Source of the DNA: Sulfurimonas sp. SAG-AH-194-C21
Lineage (GTDB): Bacteria; Campylobacterota; Campylobacteria; Campylobacterales; Sulfurimonadaceae
Assembly: GCF_029215985.1 (NCBI RefSeq)
Contig: NZ_JAEMVC010000005.1
Coordinates: 41,733 to 105,732, forward strand
Length of the DNA: 64,000 nucleotides
Direction of reading: 5' to 3'
Both the position numbers and the translations under genes were made by a program. How positions within the stretch are numbered: the first letter of the stretch is position 1; the number at the start of each line of letters is the position of its first letter. Below the pieces are notes generated by a model. It was not told the origin of the DNA. It ran no database searches and saw nothing but the letters and a program-made list of their open reading frames with translations. Positions 25,893 to 34,994 of this stretch are shown here, piece by piece.

Positions 25893-26903
25893 TCAATCTT
25901 TATCTAACTCTTGAATCAAGATGTCAAAATCACTTTTATATGATTTGTCTTGAATGACTTTATATTTTTCAAATTCACTGATAGCAAACTCTTTTGCAAT
26001 TACGGCTGTAACCTTTCCTGCATCTTGTAGAATATCTCGTTCGTTAAATTGTAAAAAAGCATTGAGTTTTTGACTCCAATCTTTCATAGTCATAGGTATA
26101 TTTCTCTCAGCTTGGTCTTGCGCATAATCTAGATACATAGTTACAATTCTATTTAATGTATTTAGCTCTTTTTCTTGTAAATAATTTTTTGCAATAATCA
26201 CATCAGTTTTTCTAACTCTTCCCTTTGGTGCATTTTTCCAAGTGGTTAGCCCCATATTTTCATTTATATGATTTGCTCTTGAGTATATTATCTCCGCTGC
26301 TGTTTATTTTGTGATAGCCCAATGTAGTTTATTTTGAACAGTTTCGAAAAACTCTTTTGTATCTAAGGAGTTTTTATCATAGTCAATACTACACTCAGCA
26401 TAAATATCCGTAATCTGCTGATAAAACCTTCTCTCACTAGAACGAACATCTCGTATTCTCTTAAGTTATTCTCTAAAATAATCTTTTCCAAATACCTGCT
26501 CTGGATTTTTTAAGAGTATATCATCCATGGTAAAACCCTTAATGATATACTCTTGAAGTCGCGAAGTTGCCCACTGTCTAAATCGTACACCTTGGATAGA
26601 TTTCACCCTATATCCAACTGAAATGATAGTATCAAGATTATAATAATTTGTAGGTTTAGTAGAAAAATCGGTTTTTCCGATTTTTCTCATAGATACATCT
26701 TTTTCTAGCTCTCCATCTTTGTAAATATTTAAAATATGCTCATTTATAGTTGAACGACCTTTTCCAAAAAGATCCGCCATCTGCTCTATAGTAAGCCATA
26801 TGTTTTCATCTTGAAGCAGAACATCTACTTTGACGTCATTATTATCTGATTTATAGATTAAAAACTCTACTGTTGAGTTTCTTATGGTTAGTTTTTTATT
26901 CAT
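25893..26903 (-). pseudogene. RhuM family protein, interrupted by two in-frame TAA codons
   Basis: ORFs 26466-26903 and 25893-26255 are in one frame; stops at 26466-26468 and 26304-26306; intervening translation aligns with the intact RhuM at 30618-31631. Confidence 0.85.
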
Positions 26904-27369
26904 TTAATTTTCCTGCAAACTCTGGTATAAATTTTCTATTTTCAGTTCTAAGTCTGATTGAGGTTGTGCTAATGTGTTTTTAAAATTATTGATACTTTTG
27001 CCATCTCTATGAAATAAAGCTATTTTGATTTTTATCATCATATAGATTTAGTCCACCTTTGAGTTGGACTAAATCTATAGAGTAAAATTCATAAATTTTT
27101 TTAATATAAAATAGATTTGTTCTTGAAAAACCTTTCAAAGCAGGAAACTCTTTTTTTAAGTCATTTGCCATCTGCTCTATAAACTTACTACCCCATTTAC
27201 TCTCTTTTTGTTTATGCGAAATCATCTCACCCAGTTCCCAATAAAACATAATAAAAGCACTATTTACAGTTGATGCTATTTTAATTTGAGAGTGTGTTAT
27301 TTTAGATTTTATATCTGTTATGAATGTTTTGTATTCGTTTGTAGTGTTTATACTTGCTAGTTTATTCAT
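26904..27369 (-). pseudogene. DUF1016/YhcG-like PD-(D/E)xK nuclease, internally deleted
   Basis: N-terminal domain ORF 27007-27369 plus out-of-frame HRDGKSINNFKNTLAQPQSDL just downstream, which resembles the family's C-terminal region. Confidence 0.65.
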
Positions 27370-27544: not shown

Positions 27545-30500
27545 TTAATTATCAATAAACTCACTAGCCAACAACTCACTCTGCTCTAACACTTTATCAG
27601 CTTCAAGTTTAGCCATATCGGGTGGATAACCATACCTCATTAAGACTTTTTTAACTAACAATCTCAACTTAGCTTTGACATCATCTCTTTTTTCCCAATC
27701 TACAGTTGCATTTTTTCTAATAATATCAACTATTAAATGTATCAATTCTTTCATTTTATAATCTTCTAAAAATTCTGTAGAACTATTTTGTGAAAGTATC
27801 ATATAAAAAGCATACTCTTCAGGTGTAAGTCCTAATTCATCTGATTTTTTATCTTCAAGTTTCATTTCTCTTGCAATATTTGACAACTCTTCTATTACTT
27901 GGGCTGTATCTATTTGATTGTTATGGTATCGTTTAATTACACTTTCCAACATCTCAGAAAACTTTTTACCTTGCACTATAGATTTTGCCTTTCTAATAGT
28001 TACTTCATCATTAATTAGTTTTTTTAATAATTCAAATGATAAGTTTTTATGTTCCATATTTTTAACTTCAAGTAAAAATTCATCTGACAATATATCTAAA
28101 GATGGTGCTTTGATTCCTACTTCATCCAATATATTAACTACACCATCAGTAGTTAAGGCATCATCAACTATCTGTTTTATAGCTGTATCAATTTCTATAT
28201 CACTTTTAAAACCACTTGGAGTAAATTTATTTATTCTTGATTTTATAGCCTGAAAAAATGCGATACCATCTCTTAATTGTTCAGCTTCTAAGCTTGGTAC
28301 TGACATAACATATAGTTTTGTCAATGATGTAAGCTCACTCAAAAATCTATTTTTCAACTCTTCATCACTTAATATAAAGTTTGTAGCTTTCATGAGAACT
28401 TGTAGTTTTTGGCTTATATTATCAGTTTTGAAATATTCTAGATAATCAAAAGTATTAAATATCTGCTCTATTACTTCAAACTTACTTTTCATACCTGCAA
28501 TAACTTCTGTCTTTTCTAAAGTAGCTTCACCTTTTCCGCCAGCTTGAACATAAGTCATCATAGCATTTCGCAAATCTTGACCAATACCAATATAATCAAC
28601 TATCAATCCACCTGGCTTATCTTTATAAACTCTATTTACCCTAGCAATTGCTTGCATCAAGTTTGCACCTTTCATTTTTTTATCAATATACATAGTGTGC
28701 ATAGGAGGACAATCAAAACCCGTAAGCCACATCGACTGAACAATCACAAGTTCTAGTTCATCATGTATATCTTTAATTCTTCCCGATAATAGTTTTCTGT
28801 CTTTTTTAGTTGTGCTATGAGGTTGATAAGATTCAGGATCATCAGTTGTACTAGTCATTACAACTTTTATTTTTCCCTTATCTAATTCATCATTATGCCA
28901 ATCACCTCTTAGGTTTATAATCTCTTTGTATAAATCAACAGCAATCTGTCTTGTCATACAAACTATCATTCCCTTACCCTCAAATAGTTCTTGTCTTGCT
29001 TCAAAGTGAGTAACTATATCATTTGCTACATCTTTTAATCTATCAGGATGTCCTACTATCGCATTTATCTGAGTATTTTTACTTTTGTATTTTTCTATTT
29101 GTCCCTCTGTAGTGTTATCTATACCGTCTATTAAGTCATCAATTTTATCTGTCACTTCTTTGTTTAGTTTTATCTTTACAAGTCTACTTTCATAATGTAT
29201 AGGTACAGTTGCCCCATCTCTTACAGCTTGTGATATATCATATATATCAATATACTTTCCAAATACAGCAGGAGTAGATTTATCATCATTTTCAATTGGT
29301 GTTCCAGTAAATCCAATAAAACTTGCTTTCGGTAGCGCATCTCTTAGGTACTTAGCACTTCCATATTTTATATCTCCATCTTTATCCACTCGACCAGTAA
29401 AACCATATTGACTACGATGTGCTTCATCTGCGACTACTATGATATTATCCCTATTACTTATCTCACCAGTTTCATCACTAAACTTTTGAATAGTAGTAAA
29501 GACAATACCACCACCACTTACATTTAATTTCTTTTTTAAATCTTCTCTACTTGTTGCTTGTATAGGTGTCTGTCTTAAAAGTGATATACAATTTCCAAAT
29601 GTACTAAATAGTTGATCATCTAAATCATTTCTATCTGTAAGTATTATGATTGTTGGATTTTTCATAGCTTTATTTACTACTAATTGCCCTGTATAAAATA
29701 CCATAGATAAAGATTTTCCACTCCCTTGAGTATGCCAAACTACACCAATCTTTTGGCTATTTCCCATAGCTTCAATAGTTTTGTGTATAGCTTTTTGTAC
29801 AGCATAATATTGATGGTAAGCAGCAACTTTTTTAATAGTTACTATTGATAAAACTTCCGTTTTTTCATCTTTCATCTCTTCTTTTTCGAATACAGTATTA
29901 AATCTTATTAAATTTAACAATACTTTTTTATCAAGCATTCGCTCATTCATTATCTGTAATTCAGGCAATACTCCATTTTCTTTTTTATCTGGAGATTTCC
30001 AAGCTAAATACCTTGAAAATGGAGCAGACAGTGAACTAACTTTTGCATCAATACCATCAGATATAATAGTTAGTGAGTTATAGTAAAAGATACTAGGTAC
30101 AGCTGTTTTATAGTTTTGAATTTGAGTGTAGGCACGATGAAGTGTAGCTTTTTCGTCAAGGGCATTTTTAAGTTCGATAATTACTAAAGGCAATCCATTT
30201 ATAAATAGTACGACATCAAGTCGTTTTTCATTATTATTTTCTTTTATTATAAATTGATTGACTACTAAAAAATCATTTAACTTAATAGTTTCTAAATCTA
30301 TAAGCTTTACATTTATACCTTGTGTCTCTCCATCTTTTTCATACTCGACAGTAACTCCATCACATAAAAGATTATGAAATTTTTCATTACTAGCCATCAT
30401 ATCTGATGAGCCTACATGTAGAACTTGGTTGTAGGCTTCATTTCTTGCATATTGTGGAAGTTTTGGATTTAATCTTTTTAGCGAATCTTTAAAAATATCA

Positions 30501-30616
30501 TCTAATACAACACTATTCTTATCTCTTTGTAAATCAGAGCCATGAAGGTATTTATAATTTTGTTTTTTTAGTAGTTCTATTAAATTTTGCTCGATTAAAT
30601 CTTCATTGATAGCCAT
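27545..30616 (-). CDS. hsdR: type I restriction endonuclease R subunit
   Basis: 1023 aa; nuclease motif VIIELKN, Walker A HTQGSGKSLSM, DEAH box VVADEAHRSQYG, GFTGTP. Confidence 0.95.
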   Translation of the reverse strand: MAINEDLIEQNLIELLKKQNYKYLHGSDLQRDKNSVVLDDIFKDSLKRLNPKLPQYARNEAYNQVLHVGSSDMMASNEKFHNLLCDGVTVEYEKDGETQGINVKLIDLETIKLNDFLVVNQFIIKENNNEKRLDVVLFINGLPLVIIELKNALDEKATLHRAYTQIQNYKTAVPSIFYYNSLTIISDGIDAKVSSLSAPFSRYLAWKSPDKKENGVLPELQIMNERMLDKKVLLNLIRFNTVFEKEEMKDEKTEVLSIVTIKKVAAYHQYYAVQKAIHKTIEAMGNSQKIGVVWHTQGSGKSLSMVFYTGQLVVNKAMKNPTIIILTDRNDLDDQLFSTFGNCISLLRQTPIQATSREDLKKKLNVSGGGIVFTTIQKFSDETGEISNRDNIIVVADEAHRSQYGFTGRVDKDGDIKYGSAKYLRDALPKASFIGFTGTPIENDDKSTPAVFGKYIDIYDISQAVRDGATVPIHYESRLVKIKLNKEVTDKIDDLIDGIDNTTEGQIEKYKSKNTQINAIVGHPDRLKDVANDIVTHFEARQELFEGKGMIVCMTRQIAVDLYKEIINLRGDWHNDELDKGKIKVVMTSTTDDPESYQPHSTTKKDRKLLSGRIKDIHDELELVIVQSMWLTGFDCPPMHTMYIDKKMKGANLMQAIARVNRVYKDKPGGLIVDYIGIGQDLRNAMMTYVQAGGKGEATLEKTEVIAGMKSKFEVIEQIFNTFDYLEYFKTDNISQKLQVLMKATNFILSDEELKNRFLSELTSLTKLYVMSVPSLEAEQLRDGIAFFQAIKSRINKFTPSGFKSDIEIDTAIKQIVDDALTTDGVVNILDEVGIKAPSLDILSDEFLLEVKNMEHKNLSFELLKKLINDEVTIRKAKSIVQGKKFSEMLESVIKRYHNNQIDTAQVIEELSNIAREMKLEDKKSDELGLTPEEYAFYMILSQNSSTEFLEDYKMKELIHLIVDIIRKNATVDWEKRDDVKAKLRLLVKKVLMRYGYPPDMAKLEADKVLEQSELLASEFIDN

Positions 30617-30617
30617 T

Positions 30618-31631
30618 TTATTTTTCCATATCTAGTAATAATTTATCAAAATCAGATAGATAGTTTTTATCTTGTACAATTCTATACTTTTCATATTCTG
30701 TATGTGCTTTTAGCTTTGCTTCTAATGATGATACTTTACCATTGTCTAGTAGTATTGGATAGCTTGAAAGTTCTAAAAACTTATATAAAAACTCTATCCA
30801 ATCTTTCATATTCATAACTATACCTTGCGATGCTCTAAGCTCTGCTAATTCTAAATATGCAACGACAATTCTATCTAGCTTCTTTATATGTTTTTCGTTA
30901 AGATAATTTTTAGCAATACTTACATCTGATTTTAATATCTTACCATTAGGAGAATTTTTCCAAGTTTTCAGACCCATATATATTTTAGTAGCATCTGCTT
31001 CACTATAAATAATCTCAGCAGCAGTTTTACCACAAATAGCCCAGTGCATTTTATTTTGTACGGAAGTAAAAAAGCTTTTAGTAAGTGCATCATTTTTATC
31101 ATAATCAGCACTAAGAGCATAAATATCTGTAATCTTTTGATAAAATCTTCGCTCACTAGATCGTATCTCTCGTATTCGTTCTAGTTGCTCTTCAAAATAA
31201 TCTATGCCAAAGTGTTTCATCTGTTTAAGTCTCTCATCATCCATTGTGAAACCTTTGATGATATACTCGTGTAAAACTTCTGTTGCCCATTTTCTAAACT
31301 CTATGGCACGATGAGAGTTTACTTTATAGCCTACTGCCGTTATAGCTTTAAGATTATAAAAATTAGTTTTGTATTTTTTACCATCTTTGGCAGTTGTTTC
31401 CATTTTGGAAACAACTGTATTCTCACTAAGTTCATTTGTCGTAAATATTTTTTTAAGATGTTTAGACACAGCAGGAATGTTTACCTCAAAAAGCTCTGCT
31501 AGTTGTTTTTGAGTAAGCCATAAAGTTTCATCTTGAAATTTTACATCTATATTTACTTTTGAGTTTTCTATTTTAAATATTACAAAGTTTGAGAATTCTT
31601 GAGGTTGATTTAGTTGTAGTTGTTTATCCAT
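30618..31631 (-). CDS. RhuM family protein (intact)
   Basis: 337 aa; RhuM signature FYNLKAITAVGYKVNSHRAIEFRKWATEVLHEYIIKGFTMDDERLK. Confidence 0.85.
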   Translation of the reverse strand: MDKQLQLNQPQEFSNFVIFKIENSKVNIDVKFQDETLWLTQKQLAELFEVNIPAVSKHLKKIFTTNELSENTVVSKMETTAKDGKKYKTNFYNLKAITAVGYKVNSHRAIEFRKWATEVLHEYIIKGFTMDDERLKQMKHFGIDYFEEQLERIREIRSSERRFYQKITDIYALSADYDKNDALTKSFFTSVQNKMHWAICGKTAAEIIYSEADATKIYMGLKTWKNSPNGKILKSDVSIAKNYLNEKHIKKLDRIVVAYLELAELRASQGIVMNMKDWIEFLYKFLELSSYPILLDNGKVSSLEAKLKAHTEYEKYRIVQDKNYLSDFDKLLLDMEK

Positions 31632-31740
31632 TTTGAAAACCTTGAACTCTTAATTCTACACTCATAAGTTTTGGTAAAAGTATTTCTCTTATATTTGATA
31701 GAGTTTTAATTTGATATATCAATATATGTAAAGTATTCAT
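31624..31740 (-). pseudogene. hsdS 3' remnant (38-codon ORF)
   Basis: Not in ORF track; reverse-complement translation MNTLHILIYQIKTLSNIREILLPKLMSVELRVQGFQNG matches the usual HsdS C-terminus (L..IRDTLLPKLMSGEIRV). Confidence 0.7.
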
Positions 31741-31742
31741 GC

Positions 31743-32753
31743 TTAATCCAACATTCTTTTAATACTTAGTTTTAAATCAAGAGGTATTGTATCTTCAAAA
31801 TCATCATATAAAGTACTTATAAATTGTCTTACATTTTCTTCAGACAATGCAAGTGAAATTTGTTCATTTTCTTTAAGTACATTAAAAATTTTCACTATTT
31901 CATCATTTGATAAAAAATTAATGTAATTGCTAAGTTCTTCAATAGTACTTTTTGTTAACTCAATATTATCAGATTTAATCAGATTGTTAAAACTAGTGCG
32001 ATAATTACTGATATTTGTAAAAGCAATTATTTCACCTGAATCTACTTCAATTACATACTTTTCAATATCTATTTTTAATAAAATAATTGCATTTTCAATG
32101 TTATTAATCCAGTAGTCAACTATACTATTTTTCGTAATGTTATCTAGTTGTAACTCTTCACTGATTTTCTCTAAAAAATAACTTTCTTTATATTGATTAA
32201 TGTTATGCTTTTTAAAATCATCATAATCTTTAATAATTGTTATACTAGATTCATGTTGAAGAGCTTCTTTTAGCTTCCCATCATTTGTACAGATAAATAC
32301 ATTTTTCTCAGTTAAAGATTGTACATATTCTAAAATAGTAAAATATATATATGCATCTTTAAATCCTTTATCTGTACTGTCTCCAGATTCAAATGGTGGT
32401 AGCTTTTTTAATGCTAAGTCCTTCATCTTTCCAAGAATAGAATAATCTGACAATGTAATTTGTGTGTATTTTAATGTTTCTTTACATTCTAAAAAATCTA
32501 TATGACCCTCAATATCAAAATCCTTTATGTCATCTTCATTTAACTTTTGTATCGCATGAAAAGGGTTAGATAAAAAAGCATCTTTATTCTTTTGTAGTTT
32601 CCTTTTTTTCTGATTTCTCATTTCTTCAATTACAATGTCAGGGAAAATGAGCTCAGCAACTTTATAAAATTTCTCAAGTTCTAGTCTTCCTCCAAAGTAC
32701 TGTTTTACATCGACATTACGTATAGCATTAGTATCAAAAATAACTTTTTGCAT
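31743..32753 (-). CDS. PIN-domain (DUF4935-like) putative ribonuclease
   Basis: 336 aa; PIN acidic motifs FDTNAIR, VIEEMRNQ, GDSTDKGFKDAYIYFTILEY, VFICTNDGKLKEAL; about 150 aa C-terminal extension. Confidence 0.72.
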   Translation of the reverse strand: MQKVIFDTNAIRNVDVKQYFGGRLELEKFYKVAELIFPDIVIEEMRNQKKRKLQKNKDAFLSNPFHAIQKLNEDDIKDFDIEGHIDFLECKETLKYTQITLSDYSILGKMKDLALKKLPPFESGDSTDKGFKDAYIYFTILEYVQSLTEKNVFICTNDGKLKEALQHESSITIIKDYDDFKKHNINQYKESYFLEKISEELQLDNITKNSIVDYWINNIENAIILLKIDIEKYVIEVDSGEIIAFTNISNYRTSFNNLIKSDNIELTKSTIEELSNYINFLSNDEIVKIFNVLKENEQISLALSEENVRQFISTLYDDFEDTIPLDLKLSIKRMLD

Positions 32754-34994
32754 TTATGATTCCCTTAACTTTTGTGAGATTTTGGATAATGTAATATTCT
32801 TCTCATTCTCTAGCATATTTGCATGTATAGTATTATTTTTTATTTTTTTAAAAATGGGCTTTATCAAATCTATAAAATCTTTCATTATTTCTTTATCGGG
32901 CATAATAAATGGGATTTGCTTAATCATTGTTGAATTAATTGCAGTTACAATTGAGGAAGTACTTCCCAAACTGTTAAAATCTAAACCATGTAAGAAAAGA
33001 TAGATAAATTCACTTTCTAAGTAAGAACCATCTTTAAGTTTCAAATGAGCGATAGCTTCATTTGTAAGCATATCTTCAGTGGCAATTGCCAATTTTCCTA
33101 CCGTCATTTTAAAGCTCAGTAATACTGTACCCTTTGGTACAATAGGAATATTAAATTTTTTTATTGCTTCATCTGTAATATATTCAGATGTATGTATAAG
33201 ATAGGTATTAGACCTTACCATATCTTTGATTGATGACCATTTTTTTCCTGTCGGAACATCAGAAAACCATTTTGGCTCTTTTCTAGGTGGAGTTCTTCCA
33301 ATTGTAATATCAAATTCCTCTCCCAGTTTTCCAACTCTCCAGCCTTTTGGAATTTCTCCTAATTGACTATCTATTTTGTTAATTTTTATGGACTTATAGT
33401 TAAAATCTATAAACCATTTCTTATATATAATTTGAGCAATATCTTTTAGTACAGTAGTCGATGTAAAATTTATATTATTCCAATCATATAAAGGAAAATA
33501 CTTTGATAATTTTTCTGAAATTTGTTTGTCTAATAAACTTTCTAAAATTGTATTTGATTTTAAAAATTCATTTATAATTTTAAATTCAACATCAAATGCT
33601 AAACGCTCCTGCCCTTTCTCTTTTCCAACATATCGGCCGGGAGTTAAAATAAAGTTGTGATTCTCCATATCTTCTAATGTTGCAGATTTACAAAAACCTT
33701 TTACATCTTCATAATTATCATCTTTTTTCCAATTGTGATAGATACTCTCTATGTTTTGTATCTCTTCATCTGTAAAGTCTCGATGAACTTTTGTCTTCAT
33801 GTACCCCATCTTTGAAGCGTCAATAAAAAGTGTTTTATTATCAGATAACTTTCTACCTCTTCTAAGTATCCAAATCGTTGCAGGTATCCCAGTATTGTAA
33901 AACAGCTGTTTTGGTAAAGCGATGATACACTCTACTAAATTATCTCTAACTATCTTTTCTCTTATAAGTCCTTCTCCACTTGTCTGTGAACTTAAACTTC
34001 CATTAGATAAAACTGTAGCCATCACACCATCAGTTGCTAGATGATAAATCATATGTTGCATCCAAGCAAAATTTGCATTTCCATTTGGTGGAGTGCCGTA
34101 CTTTTTCCATCTCCCATCTTCTGCTAATATATCTGCTCCCCAGTCCGACTGGTTAAATGGTGGATTTGCTAAGATAAAGTTAGCTTTTAAGTCTGGATGA
34201 GCATCTTTTAAAAATGTTCCCTCAGTATTCCAAGCTACAAATTTAGAATTTATATTTCGTATAGCAAGGTTCATTTTAGAGAGTTTCCACGTAGTCTGGT
34301 TTGATTCTTGTCCATAGATAGTTATATCTTGTACATTCCCACCAAGTGTATTTTCTATAAATTTTTCACTCATTACAAACATACCACCACTACCACAAGC
34401 AGGGTCATAAACTCTACCTTTTTCAGGTCGTATCATCTTAACCATAAGTTCTACTATGGATTTTGGAGTATAAAACTGCCCACCTTTTTTACCCTCTGCA
34501 TTAGCAAACTCACCCAAAAAGTATTCATAAACACGACCGAGTAAATCTTTAGAATTTTCACTATGTGCTTTTAGTTCAATATCAGATATTACATCTATAA
34601 GTTCTCCTAAAGATGCTTTATCAAGATTTGCTCTTCCATATACTTTTGGAAGTACATTTTTAAGCTCTCTATTTTCTTTTTCAATAGCACTCATAGCATC
34701 ATCTATATGTACACCAATCTCAGGAAGTTTTGCTTTAGCTTGTAACTCAGTCCATCTTGCCTCACGAGGAACAAAAAAACAATTTTGGGCTATATACTCA
34801 TCTCTATCTTCCGCATCACTATATTCATCTTCTGATAATTTTTCAAATAACTCTTGAAATGAATCAGAAATATATTTTAAAAATATAAGACCTAATACTA
34901 CATTTTTATATTCGGCTGCATCTATATTTTTTCTTAGTTTATCTGCTGTTTTAAAAAGTGCTTGTTCAAAATCTTTGTTATTTTCTTGTGACAA
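32754..34994 (-). CDS. HsdM-HsdS fusion: type I N6-adenine methyltransferase with a single C-terminal target-recognition domain
   Basis: 746 aa; MTase motifs VYDPACGSGGMFV and NPPFNQSDW, HNFILTPGRYVG end of HsdM, then HsdS spacer/TRD (IAQIIYKKWFIDFNY...SQLGEIPKGWRVGKLGEEFDITIGRTPPRKEPKWF). Confidence 0.88.
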   Translation of the reverse strand: MSQENNKDFEQALFKTADKLRKNIDAAEYKNVVLGLIFLKYISDSFQELFEKLSEDEYSDAEDRDEYIAQNCFFVPREARWTELQAKAKLPEIGVHIDDAMSAIEKENRELKNVLPKVYGRANLDKASLGELIDVISDIELKAHSENSKDLLGRVYEYFLGEFANAEGKKGGQFYTPKSIVELMVKMIRPEKGRVYDPACGSGGMFVMSEKFIENTLGGNVQDITIYGQESNQTTWKLSKMNLAIRNINSKFVAWNTEGTFLKDAHPDLKANFILANPPFNQSDWGADILAEDGRWKKYGTPPNGNANFAWMQHMIYHLATDGVMATVLSNGSLSSQTSGEGLIREKIVRDNLVECIIALPKQLFYNTGIPATIWILRRGRKLSDNKTLFIDASKMGYMKTKVHRDFTDEEIQNIESIYHNWKKDDNYEDVKGFCKSATLEDMENHNFILTPGRYVGKEKGQERLAFDVEFKIINEFLKSNTILESLLDKQISEKLSKYFPLYDWNNINFTSTTVLKDIAQIIYKKWFIDFNYKSIKINKIDSQLGEIPKGWRVGKLGEEFDITIGRTPPRKEPKWFSDVPTGKKWSSIKDMVRSNTYLIHTSEYITDEAIKKFNIPIVPKGTVLLSFKMTVGKLAIATEDMLTNEAIAHLKLKDGSYLESEFIYLFLHGLDFNSLGSTSSIVTAINSTMIKQIPFIMPDKEIMKDFIDLIKPIFKKIKNNTIHANMLENEKNITLSKISQKLRES

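Follow-up and report, generated by a model that had tools for sequence, protein, structure and literature searches.

A predicted PIN-type ribonuclease as probable exchangeable cargo behind hsdS in type I restriction operons

Ribonucleases embedded in type I restriction-modification (RM) loci are already known from PrrC, whose orthologues are invariably linked to type Ic RM systems (PMC2610378), and such embedding has been generalised in the published hypothesis of immunity-suicide coupling (PMC3506569). PIN-domain proteins are likewise known near type I RM genes, although in another architecture (PMC7641849). We here describe a gene for a PIN-domain protein in a type I RM operon of a 64,000-nt stretch of DNA, referred to below as the window. 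The likeness to PrrC of the EcoprrI type IC RM locus is that of a toxic RNase, in our case a predicted one, inside a type I RM operon with no separate antitoxin. However, PrrC combines an ABC ATPase part with an ACNase active site whose fold is different, whereas the window protein is a PIN protein without an NTPase; Pfam, NCBIfam and PADLOC gave neither an ABC ATPase domain nor a match to the Arg-Glu-His ACNase triad in it. The rlo and mlo genes (R-linked and M-linked ORFs) of Campylobacter jejuni hsd loci are, in the part of the published account used here (PMC5183652), intervening ORFs between hsdS and hsdR of a Campylobacterota type I operon, as in the window, but they comprise RloC-type genes and others, and that same part describes no hsdS-tied PIN_12 gene. 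In the RptR island of EPEC, DarTG2 sits as a toxin module in exactly the same slot between hsdS and hsdR, a site called a potential recombination hotspot (PMC12255303); it is, however, a toxin-antitoxin pair acting on DNA, unlike the single PIN gene of the window with no shared antitoxin gene. PIN-GNAT-EVE systems also feature a PIN RNase associated with HsdR/M/S operons, but differ in architecture and partners (GNAT, EVE, ASCH) (PMC7641849). Finally, DS-3 and DS-5 are PIN RNases that act in phage defence without a classical antitoxin (PMC13092281), and PDC-S70 is a PIN candidate obtained from guilt-by-embedding (PMC12988326). What distinguishes our protein from DS-3/DS-5, PDC-S70 and the PADLOC candidate PDC-S34 is that its PIN part matches no PADLOC model convincingly: none of the PADLOC models matches the window protein, the best being QatB with an E-value of 0.039. 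The literature searched yielded no description of an hsdS-linked PIN_12 clade.

On the minus strand of the window, a fused hsdM-half-hsdS gene is followed by the PIN gene, a 117-nt hsdS remnant, RhuM, hsdR and decayed DUF1016 and RhuM pieces:

32754..34994, minus strand: hsdM fused to half an hsdS, 746 aa, TTG start (Pfam HsdM_N, N6_Mtase, Methylase_S)
31743..32753, minus strand: candidate PIN effector, 336 aa (PIN_12 nuclease 1-186, clade-specific beta-meander domain 190-245, C-terminal helical module 250-332)
31624..31740, minus strand: leftover HsdS C-terminus (QIKTLSNIREILLPKLMSVELRV), its stop overlapping the RhuM start; recombination scar
30618..31631, minus strand: RhuM-family protein, 337 aa, second cargo gene (PF13310, 352 bits; PADLOC PDC-S05)
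27545..30616, minus strand: hsdR, type I restriction/translocase subunit, 1023 aa, intact (TIGR00348 hsdR, HSDR_N, SWI2_SNF2)
27007..27369, minus strand: DUF1016 protein N-terminal fragment, decayed cargo (PF17761, 1-80/137)
25893..26903, minus strand: broken second RhuM copy (two ORFs, two in-frame TAA)

The initial annotation had placed a PIN-domain ORF with retained acidic residues directly behind the HsdMS stop, and both points were borne out: at 31743-32753, on the minus strand, lies an ORF of 336 codons whose ATG abuts the stop codon of the HsdM/HsdS gene upstream (TAA directly followed by ATG; ATCATAAATG). The profile search proposed there for DUF4935/PIN matched PF16289 PIN_12 (formerly DUF4935) to residues 4-160 at 57 bits, against a Pfam cut-off of 32. 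None of the acidic PIN residues D7, E44, D128, D133 and D158 is substituted in six aligned relatives, and a seventh keeps them too. The AlphaFold2 model is confident (mean pLDDT 86, pTM 0.71); in it the PIN domain is followed by a beta-meander (211-247) and a helical C-terminus. Ranked by E-value, the top PDB structural matches of this model are led by the PIN protein Nmd4 (probability 0.99), with the VapC2 toxin lower (0.87), and a viral PIN-like protein matches it as well (E 8e-7); a search by sequence for remote homologues in the PDB gave none that was meaningful. The reading as a PIN nuclease with intact catalytic residues is thus supported, and RNA cutting is predicted for it.

The upstream gene, initially termed HsdMS, proved to be complete only in its HsdM part, which could be aligned to the HsdM of Sulfuricurvum. 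The fusion comprises a complete N6 methylase (residues ~1-499) followed by the HsdS central conserved region, one target-recognition domain and a C-terminal helix; this HsdS portion is only the second half of the subunit, as its alignment to a relative of 423 aa covers residues 183-410 only, and the first recognition domain is absent. Relatives such as L004 and L116 have a full-length hsdS. The 117-nt remnant on the other side of the PIN gene shows 71-74% identity to same-genus HsdS C-termini (E ~1e-7), and its match of 36.6 bits compares with at most 24.3 in 100 shuffles. With an HsdS body and an HsdS tail flanking the PIN gene, recombination inside hsdS is indicated. HsdM and HsdR are complete and HsdS is half-length, and the only other HsdS-like gene found in this genome, which is 88% complete, is a weak match elsewhere. 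As a dimer, the half-HsdS fusion could recognise a symmetric target; alternatively, this restriction system may be inactive. A promoter scan gave no excess over shuffled sequence.

Used alone as a query, the PIN protein retrieved four relatives from 84,980 species genomes, and alignment searches added two; the window and these six relatives make up the clade discussed below, the retrieval having been by the PIN protein and not by context. The seven loci come mostly from metagenome-assembled genomes and are distributed over Campylobacterota (two), Bacteroidota (three) and Patescibacteria (two), the phylum of L038, L116 and the window being judged by gene content or by the group that was sampled. 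The co-occurrence of PIN and RM genes that had been proposed from the window recurs throughout: in 7/7 clade members the PIN gene lies directly 3' of hsdS within an hsdM..hsdR operon, in three phyla, with hsdS-PIN gaps of -14, -4, 0, 1, 3, 3 and 18 nt. As controls, an hsd gene was beside none of eight other PIN_12 genes, and RhuM, cargo of a like kind, adjoins hsd genes in 9 of 30 loci (one genus, 1.5 kb on each side, some flanks being cut by contig ends). The seven loci have nothing in common beyond M, S, PIN and R, so there is no conserved antitoxin gene, and no conserved small antitoxin gene was found next to PIN. The larger arrangement hsdMS-PIN-rhuM-hsdR, which had been put forward for survey, recurs in its hsdS-PIN part; as a four-part conserved unit it was rejected, RhuM being present in only two of the seven loci, the window and L005. 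For the same reason RhuM was rejected as a dedicated antitoxin. The same pairing in seven distantly related bacterial loci looks like a swappable second-line antiviral defence. The clade is rare, with one member in 397 genomes of the window's class and two in 396 of a Bacteroidota sample, counts from scans with short peptide patterns, which miss distant members. On plasmids, phages and viral contigs no full-length relative was found, and only the C-terminal module gave matches. In one Bacteroidota locus (L038:5716-9033), NsnA/ATPase/NsnC-like genes follow the PIN gene in the same type I operon, suggesting that several effectors can stack in one slot.

Comparison of related operons shows the PIN gene to be part of an exchangeable block, moving with the hsdS portion of the operon while hsdM and hsdR on either side are conserved. 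Between the window and Sulfuricurvum, identity amounts to 81% for HsdM and 87% for HsdR but 40% for PIN; between two Flavobacterium-genus loci, it is 91% for HsdM and 95% for HsdR but 49% for PIN and 29% for HsdS. At the 3' end of hsdM, window and Sulfuricurvum identity runs through 95, 65 and 37% in successive 75-residue segments, and in HsdR it is 65% over the first 75 residues and 96% in the next segment. Strict co-evolution of PIN with M and R was rejected, the correlation being loose (r 0.72-0.75, Mantel p 0.015-0.019) and driven by deep splits, and with S there was no correlation. Within the window's genus the same slot holds HamA plus a helicase (Hachiman), a PtuA-like ATPase (Septu), a Cap4-like nuclease and Abi_C, as well as AbiEii, Schlafen AlbA and a KAP ATPase. 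The PIN gene is thus one of many effectors using the slot, and embedding alone does not imply that the Hsd proteins hold the effector. The Hachiman-like pairs of HamA and helicase were seen between hsdS and hsdR in two same-genus genomes (L071:4425-7670 and L074:5768-8799).

Outside the nuclease domain, the PIN proteins carry two further parts. The beta-meander occurs in 7/7 hsdS-linked PIN proteins and in none of 2,722 other ORFs searched, non-hsd PIN_12 loci included. The C-terminal module (250-332) is present in five of the seven, L005 and L038 being without it; the L005 protein is truncated at its C-terminus and ends in a short hsdS-like stretch, EGFDNE, too short to be claimed as a scar. 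This module recurs in PIN_12 proteins encoded by a P1-like phage and by related plasmids from E. coli, Salmonella and Klebsiella, in a PIN protein from a Xanthomonas plasmid, and in PDC-S34, which the PIN relatives match there only. The PIN gene of phage JL22 is flanked by mat and lxc, at exactly the place of the type III restriction genes res-mod in phage P1, and no Hsd partner adjoins it; the P1-like gene is likely a defence gene swapped into the phage restriction slot. Not all module-bearing PIN_12 proteins would therefore need Hsd, since these have no adjoining RM genes. The P1-like phage/plasmid loci with a PIN_12 gene between lxc and mat are L120:5299-6249 and L123:5299-6249. On a Phocaeicola plasmid (L122:6089-7195), a HAD-phosphatase-like protein ends in the same C-terminal module of ~65 residues (E 4e-9), from which it follows that the module is attached to different enzymes.

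We consider it probable that the window protein is a latent PIN-type ribonuclease which acts as a second-line (abortive-infection) effector and which the type I restriction operon carries behind hsdS as exchangeable cargo. It would be made together with HsdS through the coupled start, and it travels with the hsdS portion of the operon as a cassette flanked by the conserved hsdM and hsdR. When infection or a failure of restriction is sensed, the nuclease would cleave RNA and translation would stop. Since no gene beyond M, S, PIN and R is common to the seven loci, either the Hsd complex, bound perhaps via the beta-meander, or the PIN protein itself would have to silence the nuclease. The half-length HsdS of the window may count against this explanation, in that the RM complex there is perhaps altered. 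Also against it stand the fast divergence of PIN beside near-constant M and R, the two clade members without the C-terminal module, and the module-bearing PIN_12 proteins that have no RM genes as neighbours.

The two ways of silencing lead to readings of close standing. A strict parallel to PrrC, the model put forward in the initial annotation, is a specific form of our explanation, in which the HsdR/M/S complex would bind and silence PIN and phage anti-restriction proteins would release it. The PrrC precedent itself (PMC12707154, PMC2610378), the exclusive hsdS linkage in 7/7 loci with no conserved antitoxin gene, and the clade-specific beta-meander favour such Hsd control. PIN, however, diverges while M and R remain 81-95% identical, which speaks against close docking to either M or R, although docking on S, or sensing of phage proteins, would allow fast divergence. 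In addition, module-bearing PIN_12 proteins persist without neighbouring Hsd, unrelated defence genes occupy the same slot, and the PIN protein is without the NTPase sensor that PrrC has, so that we regard strict guarding by the Hsd complex as possible but rather unlikely. The alternative, that PIN is an auto-inhibited single-gene defence which senses infection itself, with the RM operon as a mere carrier (shared promoter, transfer), is tentative but tenable. Rapid PIN divergence and the free-standing relatives that share the module favour autonomy, the module being found on the P1-like phage PIN protein in the place of res-mod, the Xanthomonas plasmid PIN protein, the Phocaeicola HAD-like protein and PDC-S34; self-sufficient systems such as Hachiman occupy the same slot; and DS-3 is a validated one-gene PIN defence without antitoxin that has been proposed to be auto-inhibited (PMC13092281). 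Autonomy would nevertheless leave the 7/7 position behind hsdS unexplained, and two clade members do not have the shared C-terminal module.

PIN domains are typical of VapC toxins, and this, with RhuM coming after PIN in the window and in L005, could suggest an ordinary VapC-like toxin-antitoxin pair whose antitoxin is the adjacent gene, RhuM or another. The next gene, however, is a different one in nearly every locus (RhuM, hsdR, a 245-aa ORF of unknown family, an AAA ATPase, PDC-M04A or NsnA), and the PIN protein is about 2.5 times the size of VapC, which makes such a pair most unlikely. It is also very unlikely that the gene is a passive hitchhiker, caught between hsdS recombination points and with no role in defence: the hsdS scar, the exchange of cassettes and the C-terminal truncation of the L005 protein would fit, but the active-site residues are invariant despite 27-49% identity and the position behind hsdS has been kept in three phyla.

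Within the preferred explanation of an exchangeable, latent RNase, one could go further and envisage an undescribed family of restriction-linked PIN RNases in hsdS-PIN cassettes, in which the beta-meander docks the nuclease to the type I enzyme on its specificity side and a swap of specificity is at once a swap of the fail-safe RNase that reports the enzyme disabled. This would be an analogue of PrrC of independent origin, with another fold and no NTPase; we hold it to be doubtful in this full form. Should PIN turn out to rely on the Hsd complex, type I restriction would have a second RNase tied to it, evolved independently of the first, and a simple unit of four genes would allow the long-standing hypothesis of immunity-suicide coupling to be tested. 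Should it act autonomously, it would still be a compact PIN defence gene that the searched PADLOC library lacks, and exchange of specificity subunits would be shown to carry effector genes along.

The closest relative of the window HsdM (80%) belongs to a reduced operon that consists of hsdM, DUF1016 and part of a RhuM gene (L069:7370-10945), near a contig end, with neither hsdS nor hsdR seen there. In the window itself, the decayed DUF1016 gene and the split RhuM copy behind hsdR (25893-27369) are the remains of a second cargo set.
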